Shown here: positions 2,937-13,004 of the stretch, one piece after another
How positions within the stretch are numbered: position 1 is the stretch's first letter
Layout of the letters: the number at the start of each line of letters is the position of its first letter
Virus record (IMG/VR): IMGVR_UViG_3300042934_000451
Span: 1 to 36,925 of that record
Length of the DNA: 36,925 nt
Source: a virus
Strand: one strand, 5' to 3'
Translations under genes and position numbers: made by a program
Notes under the pieces: generated by a model
The model's database searches: none
What the model was told of the DNA's origin: nothing
What the model saw: the letters and a program-made list of their open reading frames with translations, nothing else

Positions 2937-3198
2937 AAAAACAGTAAGCGTAAATTTTGATAAAGACGTGAGCCTATATAAATATGTGAAAAGCCAAAAG
3001 AATTCATCTGATTTTATAAGAGATTGTATCAGAGAAAAAATGGAAAGAGAAAAAGGGCATACCAATGAATTAGAGCATATGGTTGAAAGGGTTGTGAAGA
3101 AATGTTTGAAACAACATAGTATAAGAGATAATAATACAGAATGTGATAGTAATGAAACACAAGCTTTAAAGGCTGCAGCAAGTTTTTTCGATGATTAA
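2929..3198 (+). CDS. ParR-like ribbon-helix-helix adaptor (candidate)
   Basis: The protein has 89 residues. The N-terminal 45 residues look like a ribbon-helix-helix DNA-binding fold: a short basic strand (KTVSVNFD) followed by two helices ending IRDCIREKMEREKG. The charged tail suits an adaptor that contacts ParM filaments. It overlaps the end of the actin-like gene, so the two are translationally coupled. Adaptors of type II partition systems have this size and position. Sequence identity to known ParR is typically low, so the assignment rests on fold pattern and context. Confidence 0.65.
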   Translation: MDRKTVSVNFDKDVSLYKYVKSQKNSSDFIRDCIREKMEREKGHTNELEHMVERVVKKCLKQHSIRDNNTECDSNETQALKAAASFFDD

Positions 3199-3305
3199 TT
3201 GAATAAATACCTGAACGCTTATGTTAAATTCAAAAGGGATTTAATATGAGTGTTTTGGTGCTTATTTGAACAAAGTAATAAATTATATTAACTGGGAGGC
3301 GTAAT

Positions 3306-3716
3306 ATGATTTTAGATAAAAACGTATACAAGAAAATAGAGTACTATCTTTACAACTATGAAATGGAACATGAACAGCTTGAATTAGTGGAGGATGATAT
3401 CATCCTTGGAGTTAAGACAGGGTTTATTGATGGCGGCAGGAGTAATCAGGTAAGCAGCAAAACAGAGAATAGTGCATTGAAGTTGATTGAGAACAGAAAA
3501 GATTATGAGTGGTTAGATGTAATACAAGCTACTCTAACGAGATTTAAGGGAACAGAACATGAAGCGGTTATATCTCTTACATATAAAGAACAATATAAGC
3601 TACCTAAAATATTACGGCTAATGAATCTTGAGAGAACAGCTTATTACGATAGAAAGAATGATGTGATTATGTATGCAGCACTTAAGGCCACTGAGAGAGG
3701 GCTAATAAACCACTGA
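3306..3716 (+). CDS. RinA/ArpU-family late transcription regulator
   Basis: The protein has 136 residues and sits last in the early operon, directly before the late genes, where Gram-positive phages carry RinA/ArpU-type activators. The C-terminal part (about residues 85-130) has a sigma-region-4-like helix-turn-helix, LPKILRLMNLERTAYYDRKN. The N-terminal half is acidic. Start ATG 3306 follows GGGAGG at 3293-3298. The five 14-bp-spaced repeats at 3736-3799, immediately after this gene and against a probable late promoter, are the obvious candidate binding sites. It would switch on packaging, structural and lysis genes. Family membership was judged by eye from size, context and HTH. Confidence 0.75.
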   Translation: MILDKNVYKKIEYYLYNYEMEHEQLELVEDDIILGVKTGFIDGGRSNQVSSKTENSALKLIENRKDYEWLDVIQATLTRFKGTEHEAVISLTYKEQYKLPKILRLMNLERTAYYDRKNDVIMYAALKATERGLINH

Positions 3717-9068: not shown

Positions 9069-10286
9069 ATGAAATTTAAAAACAAACAAGATTATTTAGA
9101 GCAAAGAACAACATTGATGAACACTATTGAGGGCATGATGAATGCTGCAACAAATGAAGAAGTAGAAAACAAAATGAAAGATGTCGAAGCGATGGATAAC
9201 GCTTGGGCTGAACAATCTAAAGAACTTGCAAACAAGGCGGCTTTAGAGGACAAATTCAAGATATTAAATCTTGCAAGCAAATCTCAATCAGTAGCAGGTC
9301 AAGTTATTGATTCTACAAACAACAGTATCACAGATGACAAGGTTTATGTAAATGCATGGGCTAAAGATATGTTAGGGGTCAAGCTTACAGATGAAGAAAA
9401 AAATACATTTAATATGGTTAATGCAGCAATGACTACAGAAACTCATGGAATACTAATCCCTGAAACAGTTGTTAAGGGGATTTGGAAGGAAATTGGACAG
9501 CAATATCCATTCTGGGCAGATGTTTCTAAAACTTATATTAAAGGTAATTTAACTATGATTAAAGGCACATCTTCTAGTGACGCAGCTTGGTATGATGAAG
9601 CTACGAGTACTGCTGATGGTACAGAAGGTTTTGCAGAACTCAATTTAACTGGATGCGAACTTTCAAGGTCAATTACAGTTTCATGGAAACTTAAAGAAAT
9701 GACAGTAGATGAATTTATACCTTACATACAAACACAACTCGCTGAAAAGATGGGAGCAGGTCTTGGGTATGGAGCTGTAATAGGAAAAGGTAAACCAGGC
9801 GGTGGTGATACATTCAAGCCAGAACCAAGAGGCACTATAACTGCACTAAAAGCAGAAGAATCTACCCCACAAATTGTATCATATAGTGATGTAGATGTAT
9901 TATCATACGACAAATTTACAACCGCAATGTCTAAAATTAAAGGTGGATACTTAAAAGGCGCAGCAGTTTATGCAGATAATAAAACTATATGGACACAAAT
10001 TGCTTCACTTAAAGATGAAGTTGGAAGACCTTATTTTGTTCCAGATGTAACAAGCGGCGGAGTAGGTCGTATTTTTGGTCTTATAGTAAAAGAAGATGAT
10101 AGCGTTACAACAAATTCAATACTTATTGGAAATGCAGCAAAAGGCTATCATGCCAACATTAACAAGCAAGTTACTTTAGACAGCGAAGATCACAAGAAAG
10201 AACGTGTAACTGATTATATCGCTTATGGTATAGTCGATGGAGATGTTGTTACAACTAAGGCATTTGTATTAATTGCAAAAAACTAA
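9069..10286 (+). CDS. Major capsid protein, HK97 fold
   Basis: The zero-frame product has 405 residues. Residues 1 to about 90 form a charged coiled-coil delta/scaffold domain likely removed by the upstream protease. The mature shell domain follows, with typical segments GILIPETVVKGIWKEI, a SVSWKLKEMTVDEF-like stretch and a C-terminal VDGDVVTTKAFVLIAKN. ATG 9069 was chosen because AAAGGTGG (9053-9060) precedes it; GTG 9057 lies inside that ribosome site. The last codons form the slippery heptamer A AAA AAC (10277-10283) directly before the stop. A strong stem follows, so part of the product is probably extended by -1 frameshifting (see the next entries). Confidence 0.95.
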   Translation: MKFKNKQDYLEQRTTLMNTIEGMMNAATNEEVENKMKDVEAMDNAWAEQSKELANKAALEDKFKILNLASKSQSVAGQVIDSTNNSITDDKVYVNAWAKDMLGVKLTDEEKNTFNMVNAAMTTETHGILIPETVVKGIWKEIGQQYPFWADVSKTYIKGNLTMIKGTSSSDAAWYDEATSTADGTEGFAELNLTGCELSRSITVSWKLKEMTVDEFIPYIQTQLAEKMGAGLGYGAVIGKGKPGGGDTFKPEPRGTITALKAEESTPQIVSYSDVDVLSYDKFTTAMSKIKGGYLKGAAVYADNKTIWTQIASLKDEVGRPYFVPDVTSGGVGRIFGLIVKEDDSVTTNSILIGNAAKGYHANINKQVTLDSEDHKKERVTDYIAYGIVDGDVVTTKAFVLIAKN

Positions 10287-10376
10287 CAGTGGTTATCTAT
10301 AGCCAGGCAGACCTTGAGGCTATGACTATTGCTCAAATAAAAGCATTAGCCGATAGCCTCGGCTATACGATAACCA
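10277..10376 (+). promoter_or_regulatory. Programmed -1 ribosomal frameshift signal in the capsid gene
   Basis: The heptamer A AAA AAC (10277-10283) is in the right register (X XXY YYZ), immediately before the capsid stop. After a 6-base spacer, 10290-10304 pairs with 10361-10376, giving 15 bp with one bulged C. The next right-strand bases 10353-10360 pair with 10316-10323 for 8 more perfect bp. Slippage enters exactly the frame of the downstream HeH-like reading frame. Similar capsid frameshifts are known in phages such as T7 and Lactobacillus A2. Confidence 0.8.
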
Positions 10377-10426
10377 AAACATTAAAGGCTGATATAATTC
10401 AAGAATTTTTAAGTCAGCAGGGGTGA
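10289..10426 (+). CDS. HeH/SAP-like C-terminal extension of the capsid (frameshift product)
   Basis: This reading frame of 45 residues (GTG 10289 to TGA 10424-10426) encodes a small helix-extension-helix domain, with AMTIAQIKALADSLGYTIT followed by KTLKADIIQEFLSQQG. There is no ribosome site for GTG 10289, and only GAGG two bases before an internal ATG 10322. Entry by -1 slippage at 10277-10283 instead joins it to the capsid: AAA AAA CTA ACA GTG continues without a stop and gives a fused protein of about 452 residues. HeH/LEM/SAP domains often bind nucleic acid. Here it could decorate the capsid or contact DNA. Confidence 0.75.
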   Translation: MVIYSQADLEAMTIAQIKALADSLGYTITKTLKADIIQEFLSQQG

Positions 10427-10430
10427 TAGC

Positions 10431-10709
10431 ATGTTAGAAAAAGTTAAAATGTCACTTAGGATTACTCATGATGCATTAGACTCAGATATTTCTGATACTA
10501 TAGACGCTTGCAAGAGGGACCTATCTATAAGCGGCGTAGAAATTATAGAAGATACTGACGAACTTATTATTCAAGCTTGTAAAACATATGCAAGAGCAGA
10601 ATATGATTTTGGAGGTAAGGGAGAGAAGTATAAGGAAAGTTACGAATTACTTAAACAACATTTATCGCTATGCGGAGATTATAAGGTGGTGGTTGAAGTT
10701 GTGGATTAA
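10431..10709 (+). CDS. Head-tail connector (gp6-like adaptor)
   Basis: The protein has 92 residues and is all-helical, as in the HK97 gp6 / SPP1 gp15 adaptor ring below the portal. The N-terminal pattern LEKVKMSLRITHDALDSDISDTIDACKRDL is typical of that family, followed by ELIIQACKTYARAEYDFGGK. Start ATG 10431 follows AGGGGTGATAGC. It sits right after the capsid cassette, as in many siphoviruses, and its 3' end overlaps the next gene by 11 bases. Confidence 0.85.
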   Translation: MLEKVKMSLRITHDALDSDISDTIDACKRDLSISGVEIIEDTDELIIQACKTYARAEYDFGGKGEKYKESYELLKQHLSLCGDYKVVVEVVD

Positions 10710-12408: not shown

Positions 12409-12735
12409 ATGAGAAAGTTAATGTTTAAGGATTGTTTGGCATTGGCCAGAGTAATGAGAAAAACTAATATTAGTGATCAGCTTTCTGAGATTGCTGAGAA
12501 GTCCAAAGATAAAGGTGTAAACATTCAAAAAGTAGGGGCTAAAGCTGTTTTTGCGATGTTTGAATCATGCGGAGATGAAGAGGCAGAAAAGGAGATATAT
12601 AAACTTCTCGGAGATATATTTGAAGCAGACGTTGAACATATGCCTATAAATGAAGTTATTGAAAGCTTCAAAAAGTTAGCTGCAGAGAATAATTTAATGG
12701 GTTTTTTCAGGCAAGCAAGTCAATTGATCCAATAG
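12409..12735 (+). CDS. Tail assembly chaperone, gpG-like
   Basis: The zero-frame product has 108 residues and coats the tape measure during tail assembly. It is helical and acidic, starts 2 bases after the tail tube stop, and is followed by a second frame in -1. At 12702-12708 the heptamer T TTT TTC is in correct slip register. A perfect 10-bp stem (12713-12722 with 12743-12752) starts four bases later. Slippage would join codon 100 to the downstream frame, giving a gpGT-type protein of about 198 residues, as in lambda and most long-tailed phages. Confidence 0.88.
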   Translation: MRKLMFKDCLALARVMRKTNISDQLSEIAEKSKDKGVNIQKVGAKAVFAMFESCGDEEAEKEIYKLLGDIFEADVEHMPINEVIESFKKLAAENNLMGFFRQASQLIQ

Positions 12736-12752
12736 CGGTCACTGACTTGCTT
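12702..12752 (+). promoter_or_regulatory. Programmed -1 frameshift signal in the tail chaperone genes
   Basis: The slippery T TTT TTC (12702-12708) is followed by a 4-base spacer and a perfect 10-bp stem, AAGCAAGTCA (12713-12722) with TGACTTGCTT (12743-12752), around a 20-base loop. The -1 frame is then open through 13001. This is the conserved position of the G/GT frameshift. Confidence 0.85.
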
Positions 12753-13004
12753 CTTTCTCGGTATGGGGGCGGGTATAACAATATACTTGCCCTTGATTTT
12801 TTAGATGCAGTTGAAATTATCAATCACGCAATAAAAACAAAATCAGAAGATTTTTTGAGACTTAGGTGGGCTATTAATCATGATCATATAGCTTTTGATG
12901 AATTTAAAATGGCATTAGATGTGAGACAGACAGTGGAAGATAAGCCTGTTGAAAGTATACTTGCTGATGTTTTTAAGGTCATCGAAGGAGGTGGTAAGCA
13001 GTGA
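12747..13004 (+). CDS. Tail assembly chaperone, T domain made by -1 frameshift
   Basis: From TTG 12747 this frame would give 85 residues, but that codon has no ribosome site. In the -1 frame from the slip site, translation reads QASKSIDPIAVTDLLLSRYG and continues to TGA at 13002-13004. So it is almost certainly expressed as the C-terminal part of the gpGT-like fusion. It overlaps the tape measure start by 4 bases (GTGA). The T domain recruits tail tube subunits in lambda. Confidence 0.82.
   Translation: MLLSRYGGGYNNILALDFLDAVEIINHAIKTKSEDFLRLRWAINHDHIAFDEFKMALDVRQTVEDKPVESILADVFKVIEGGGKQ

Follow-up and report, generated by a model that had tools for sequence, protein, structure and literature searches.

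The major capsid protein gene of the virus record analysed here (36,925 bases, the whole of which we call the window) very probably directs, by a programmed -1 ribosomal frameshift, the synthesis of a minor extended capsid form, whose helix-extension-helix (HeH) domain would be displayed on the outside of the shell and would probably be adhesive. We computed the shift signal, its conservation and covariation, the reading frame, the predicted fold of the appended domain and its recurrence on capsids and tail tubes. The features concerned are:

9069..10286, + strand: major capsid protein gene, HK97 fold (405-aa 0-frame product; PF05065, phrog_10, AF2 model)
10277..10283, + strand: slippery heptamer A AAA AAC, in X XXY YYZ register and directly before the capsid stop
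10284..10289, + strand: 6-nt spacer TAACAG, which includes the 0-frame stop TAA
10290..10376, + strand: predicted stimulatory stem with outer and inner helices (from the fold and its covarying counterpart in relatives)
10283..10426, + strand: -1 frame extension, HeH/Rho_N-like three-helix domain, 47 codons plus TGA stop (10424-10426)
10431..10709, + strand: neck/head-tail connector protein, the next gene (PF24829, 5.4e-8; phrog_5223, 3.7e-25)

The capsid gene and its candidate shift site

The 9069-10286 product is an HK97-fold major capsid protein both by sequence family, with profile matches to PF05065 (4.2e-26) and phrog_10 (6.7e-43), and by fold, its AF2 model matching HK97 capsids and GTA/cf-PICI shells at Z 17-20. 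The gene is flanked by that of a ClpP-type head maturation protease on one side and that of the neck/connector protein on the other, and the likely ribosome-binding site of the latter, AGGGGTGAT, overlaps the end of the extension. As the last residue of the capsid model aligned with HK97 residue 382, the extension begins at the end of the HK97 fold. Farther downstream, the window also holds a tail assembly chaperone pair (12409-13004), in which ORF 12409-12735 has GGGTTTTTTC (12699-12708) in slip register and its -1 frame reaches 13004, an ordinary lambda G/GT-type -1 frameshift.

The final codons of the capsid gene are GCA AAA AAC TAA, with the stop at 10284-10286. A sequence-only reading of this region had proposed a heptamer, a 6-base spacer and a long stem, and every coordinate checks (10277-10283, 10284-10289 and 10290-10376). 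In the outer stem, TGGTTATC-TATAGCC (10290-10304) pairs with GGCTATA-C-GATAACCA (10361-10376) over 15 bp, interrupted by a single bulged C (10368); in the inner stem, GAGGCTAT (10316-10323) pairs with ATAGCCTC (10353-10360) over 8 bp; and the right strand of both is contiguous (10353-10376). Folding of 10284-10380 (97 nt), suggested in the same reading as a check against shuffled controls, gave a minimum free energy (MFE) of -39.8 kcal/mol versus -16.8 +/- 3.0 in 200 dinucleotide shuffles (z -7.57), none of which was as stable. The window hence presents the combination that defines -1 frameshift sites, an in-frame X XXY YYZ heptamer with a stable stem within 5-9 nt downstream; an Rfam search of the window returned no match.

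Translation of the -1 frame from 10283 to 10423 yields LTVVIYSQADLEAMTIAQIKALADSLGYTITKTLKADIIQEFLSQQG, followed by TGA, which confirms the open frame of 47 codons claimed earlier and a predicted long form of 405 + 47 = 452 residues. Near the shift, the frame contains just two possible starts, GTG 10289 and ATG 10322; neither has a Shine-Dalgarno match, the stem starts one base into the GTG, and the earlier statement that the extension has no convincing start of its own holds. A conserved -1 ORF without an initiation site of its own is found in the window as well as in relatives, most extensions having either no start codon or one that lacks a Shine-Dalgarno match.

In the mechanism that we propose, ribosomes would pause at the long stem starting 6 nt downstream of A AAA AAC, and a fraction of them would slip back one base, both tRNAs re-pairing (AAA to AAA, AAC to AAA) and the UAA being missed, with the result that a 452-residue minor capsid form would be made beside the 405-residue major form. 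The junction would read ...AKN-LTVV after a tandem slip and ...AKK-LTVV after a P-site slip. In the minor form the HK97 fold would be followed at its C-terminus by the 47 extra residues, as an acidic domain of HeH/Rho_N type. The long form would be mixed into the shell with this domain most likely outside, like Ig-like and other capsid or tail-tube extensions, and once displayed the domain would probably act as a weak adhesin or an accessory decoration. We infer the occurrence and rate of shifting, the incorporation into virions, the outside location and the adhesive role from these sequence comparisons.

Recurrence of the cassette in other phages

Single-protein scans for capsid relatives gave few loci, and a scan with a capsid alignment (A2) was used instead. 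It returned 80 viral loci, in a minority of which the -1 frame is open over a long stretch and encodes an HeH-type domain (L035, L037, L043, L047, L050, L054, L055, L069 and L085); the earlier single-protein scans had found such extensions in L003, L020, L017 (Enterococcus phage phiEG37K, LC625742) and L021; L003 and L019 belong to the Clostridium saudiense JCC prophage. Five other loci (L004-L008) were dropped as capsid relatives, only the N-terminal part of the capsid being common. Two of the extended loci have particularities of their own. In L021, a Lachnospiraceae prophage capsid, the -1 extension has 209 aa (1472-2098) and consists of a large domain, without Pfam or PHROG match, with the HeH at its end. 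In phiEG37K, a phage of Enterococcus gallinarum, a culturable host, an unannotated -1 HeH-like extension follows the capsid (3167-3316), with G GGG GAG, a 6-nt spacer and a hairpin as signal.

The closest capsid relative (L001, 65% identity) has no extension and many other relatives likewise have none, indicating that the extension is dispensable or was recently gained or lost. In a tree of 115 capsids, the HeH label needs no fewer than 7 changes, and well-supported branches force 4 of these; the HeH has therefore been gained or lost repeatedly.

A search blind to upstream sequence was made with an alignment of six extensions (A3). Counting upstream ORFs of at least 100 codons that end inside the HeH frame, the HeH lay in the -1 frame of the upstream ORF in 71 of the 80 viral loci obtained, in the +1 frame in none and in frame in three (the capsid-HeH fusions L168, L174 and L176), the remaining 6 being without a frame call, mostly because they are cut by contig ends. 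One of the 71, L118, was rejected as a frameshift case, its domain being in frame on a decoration-protein ORF. The domain of L102 is 80% identical to that of the window, and among 50,697 annotated phage records 2 matched the extension, both unannotated.

A recognisable slippery site is present in the last codons of 60 of the 68 distinct cassettes versus 2 of 57 extension-free capsids, one of these two being iA2, whose CCCAAAA resembles the known A2 site. The Fisher P value of this enrichment (4e-24) is nominal, because the sequences are related and the G-rich classes (GGGGGA, GGGG-stop) were defined after inspection; for all P values from these related sequences, independence is overstated. 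The classes comprise A AAA AAN (14 cassettes), G GGA AAN (7), G GGG GGA (2), G GGG GAA/GAG (24) and a class of 13, almost entirely from the tail-protein group, in which G GGG is followed by a stop codon in the A site; strict X XXY YYZ sites, which are those of the first three classes, number 23 of 68. The very A AAA AAC of the window recurs in L120, L150, L160 and L163, and no recognised motif was found in 8 of the 68 cassettes (L104, L107, L108, L116, L159, L169, L178 and L179), whose upstream genes are capsid or tail genes with the HeH in frame -1.

The position of the stem follows the heptamer. Allowing the helix to start 0-19 nt after the heptamer and taking other positions of the same genes as controls, the best helix starts 5-6 nt past the heptamer in 37 of 45 capsid cassettes versus 16 of 135 control positions. 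The window is outside these 37, as the score used in this test picks a GU-rich 10-bp helix at spacer 3, whereas its MFE structure is the spacer-6 stem. Some cassettes, among them L150, L160, L128 and L044, have the heptamer 3 or 6 nt ahead of the stop, and there the helix is displaced along with the heptamer instead of staying with the stop; in this comparison of heptamer and stop the window stem has spacer 6. The arm sequences vary between cassettes but remain complementary: TGGTTATC/GATAACCA in the window, GGTATACCCT/GGGGTATACC in L103, CCGCCGCTGAGGC/GCTTTAGCGGCGG in L112 and AGCGACAGC/GCTGTCGCT in L144, and a clear compensatory change, U-A to C-G, separates L112 from L121. When arms were swapped among cassettes in 2000 permutations, an anchored helix of at least 8 bp was found in 32 of 52 native arm pairs, compared with a permuted mean of 5.4 and a maximum of 14; the window stem scores 8 bp in this test. 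Fixed 80-nt MFE windows discriminate weakly (mean z -1.72 versus about -0.1 to -0.6 at most control offsets, although offset +300 reaches -1.38), being shorter than the 85-130 nt over which the stems extend; the anchored-helix test was used in their place. Heptamer, 5-6 nt spacer, covarying stem and -1 domain, which the sequence-only reading had proposed to look for in related capsid genes, do recur there.

A strong stem was not found in several cassettes, namely L003, L020 and the tail-protein group, in which an anchored stem is present in 1 of 16 cassettes only. Lacking such a stem, the tail cassettes would depend on G GGG-stop or on other features that escaped this analysis. Their sites are mostly G GGG UAA, the stop codon occupying the A site, and a stop-assisted -1 shift is possible for them. 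The cassettes with no strong stem, the eight with no recognised motif and the unextended L001 weigh against the frameshift reading.

The appended domain and the proteins that carry it

The AF2 model of the extension (mean pLDDT 90.9) has helices at residues 8-12, 16-26 and 35-46, the latter two being linked by an extended segment, which is the helix-extension-helix core. Structural matches include T4 endonuclease VII (Z 6.2), the Rho N-terminal domain (6.1), B. subtilis YqbF (5.3) and SAP domains (4-5). Since the top match is a segment of the Mycoplasma G1-ATPase (Z 7.2) and all Foldseek E-values exceed 0.1, this similarity is at the level of fold, through a small common motif. Among 41 extensions searched with Pfam profiles, Rho_N was found in 21 at E<=0.01 (best 4.4e-9), HeH in 1 (1.7e-6) and SAP in 3, and a profile of the family matched Thermotoga Rho (4.6e-6) and FluMu gp35 (3e-4) in the PDB. 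The HeH/SAP-like character attributed to the domain from sequence is thus borne out by the AF2 model and by Rho_N and HeH profile matches in relatives, the window copy itself scoring 14.2 bits against Rho_N, below the curated cut-off of 24.9. FluMu gp35/HI1507 and YqbF are prophage proteins encoded near capsid genes. Both (2OUT and 2HJQ) resemble the window's HeH domain by profile or fold, but they are separate ORFs and not frameshift-delivered capsid tails.

The net charge of the window extension is -2, and 66 of 68 extensions are negative; judged by net charge only, the basic nucleic-acid surface of SAP-type domains is not seen. No Ig family match was obtained for the window extension, and the domain is all-helical. 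The EF-hand_5 profile was found in 11 of the 41 extensions and a looser EF-hand expression in 24 loci, the window copy being without this loop. An EF-hand-like DxDxDGxLxxxE loop lies right before the HeH in L112, L121, L124, L131, L150, L160, L171 and others.

The proteins upstream of the domain fall into separate families by BLAST: the HK97-type capsid, an SU10-type capsid (PF17236, 2.4e-50), a phrog_544 capsid (3.5e-38) and, in two groups of about 165-180 aa, proteins with matches to phrog_158, the family of major tail proteins (2.3e-4 to 2.4e-8). Capsids and tail tubes alike thus receive the domain as an appendage, apparently through frameshifting. In the tail-protein group the HeH often occurs in two tandem copies. 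Tail-protein-like ORFs with a -1 HeH were seen in L107, L108, L123, L125, L129, L137, L138, L140, L141, L145, L149, L153, L155 and L162. In L118 (2542-3129), the HeH is fused in frame to the C-terminus of a lambda-D-like head decoration protein (PF02924, 2.4e-9). The same cassette layout also occurs after the capsid stop with another domain: L044, L052 and L060 have A AAA AAA, a 6-nt spacer and an 11-bp stem, and the extension is a carbohydrate-binding CBM_X2 domain (PF03442) in L044 (3.7e-12) and in L052 (1.2e-27, two copies), the two loci covered by the domain scan, that of L060 looking similar. In Caldibacillus phage CBP1 (L010, 3236-3529), a separate post-capsid ORF with its own start has a related C-terminal HeH-type domain; its PHROG 390 label, 'Arc-like repressor', looks like a misannotation of a structural-module protein. 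Relatives that keep the domain with separate initiation, which had been named in advance as counter-evidence, were found only in this different architecture, an alternative delivery route that does not overturn the cassette reading.

These carriers also bear on a wider proposal, which we regard as evenly balanced between right and wrong: a mobile, acidic HeH module, often placed after an EF-hand-like loop, may move between phage structural genes that are unrelated to one another, those of three capsid families, two groups of tail tubes and one decoration protein, almost always as an out-of-frame cassette whose dosage control lies in the slippery site and, on capsids, in a long-range stem at fixed spacing. 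It would then be a non-Ig class of frameshift-delivered surface domain, swappable with CBM_X2 and serving uncultured phages as a low-dose adhesin.

Alternative explanations and known systems

Several other explanations could account for the arrangement in the window. One is translational coupling: after termination at UAA 10284, ribosomes might start anew at GTG 10289 or ATG 10322 and release a free HeH protein. The GTG does begin 2 nt past the stop codon, an ATG overlaps the stop in L121, L134, L144, L150, L160, L163, L165 and L177, and in L010 a related domain has an ORF to itself. Under such coupling, however, neither a slippery motif nor a helix positioned by the heptamer instead of the stop would be expected, and L003, L020, L043, L069, L139, L151 and L162 have no start before the domain; together with the lack of Shine-Dalgarno matches at both window starts and a stem that begins inside the GTG, this makes it very unlikely in our view. 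A still smaller likelihood is given to transcriptional slippage, by which the A6 run would fuse the frames in the mRNA. Homopolymeric A runs do occur in several members, L003 and L020 having A9 and no strong stem, and in relatives with A9 such slippage is possible, but the window run has only six A, most cassettes have G-rich or mixed heptamers, and a stem held 5-6 nt from the heptamer is the signature of ribosomal slippage; ribosomal and transcriptional slippage are separated only by this heptamer-anchored stem. That heptamer, stem and open frame coincide by chance and without function might be argued from the absence of an extension in the closest capsid, L001, and is scarcely credible: the fold has a z of -7.6, the L102 domain is 80% identical, and the family statistics (frame, motif, swap and spacer tests), along with the covariation, contradict it.

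The frameshift could also be real and the domain lie inside the head, for instance binding or organising DNA. SAP and Rho N-terminal domains are nucleic-acid-associated, and the fold matches both, yet we consider this unlikely. Of the two roles put forward by the sequence-only reading, shell decoration is favoured and DNA anchoring disfavoured, because the extensions are almost all acidic, the window's included, the domain is carried by major tail proteins and a decoration protein, and C-terminal extensions of the Bxb1 capsid, of HK97 type, are external (PMC8704799). External display is the best reading of these same observations, taken with the exchange for CBM_X2 and the extensions of Bxb1 and SPP1, and by analogy weak adhesion is the most likely use of a displayed domain. 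In Bxb1, related extensions occur on capsid and tail tube, as here, and are dispensable, but they have about 90 aa and are part of the normal capsid and tail-tube proteins, no frameshift being reported (PMC8704799).

Capsid and tail frameshifts are known in T3, T7, Listeria PSA, A118 and A500 (PMC5009743) and in SPP1 gp17.1* (PMC6316719). These systems likewise make a minor, C-terminally extended virion protein by recoding, in capsid and tail-tube genes, whereas their extensions are Ig-like or FN3 (that of T7 is not Ig-like) and several use +1 shifts. The frameshifted SPP1 tail protein, about 1 in 4 subunits, exposes an FN3 domain for which a part in adhesion has been suggested (PMC6316719). 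The major head protein gp5 of Lactobacillus phage A2 is, according to the articles that cite the original report, extended by a -1 frameshift (Garcia 2004, cited in PMC5009743 and PMC10885494). It belongs to the same homologous group of HK97-type capsids as the window's (the iA2 capsid is 38.8% identical) and shifts just before the stop with a stem close behind, the iA2 site reading C CCA AAA GTG TAG, then CCCCGC...GCGGGG. The A2 extension is Ig-like (PMC5009743), in contrast to the HeH/Rho_N-like helices of the window, which has another heptamer and a longer-range stem; the window thus shares with the A2/T3 type the shift at the 3' end of the capsid gene and not the Ig-like extension. The motif GGGGGAA ('fivetwo') is frequent among phage slippery sites in SEA-PHAGES frameshifted genes, and G-U re-pairing of the second tRNA has been proposed for it (PRFect, PMC10885494). 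It is the heptamer of 22 of the 68 cassettes here; it was reported mostly in tail-assembly chaperones, however, and the window uses A AAA AAC.

Extension of capsid and tail proteins by frameshift, mostly with Ig-like domains, is therefore known, and what appears to be new is an HeH/Rho_N-like domain delivered likewise; a search of the open-licence literature, itself weak evidence, found no prior description of HeH/Rho_N domains delivered by capsid frameshift. The described extensions come from a handful of cultured phages, whereas the HeH cassette spans many uncultured ones. Its members, with their heptamer class, spacer, stem and host protein, form a comparative set for asking why phages meter surface domains by recoding, and they show products that gene callers currently miss. 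Should the wider proposal of a mobile module hold, HeH would make up a second class of virion surface domains delivered by frameshift, beside the Ig-like ones.
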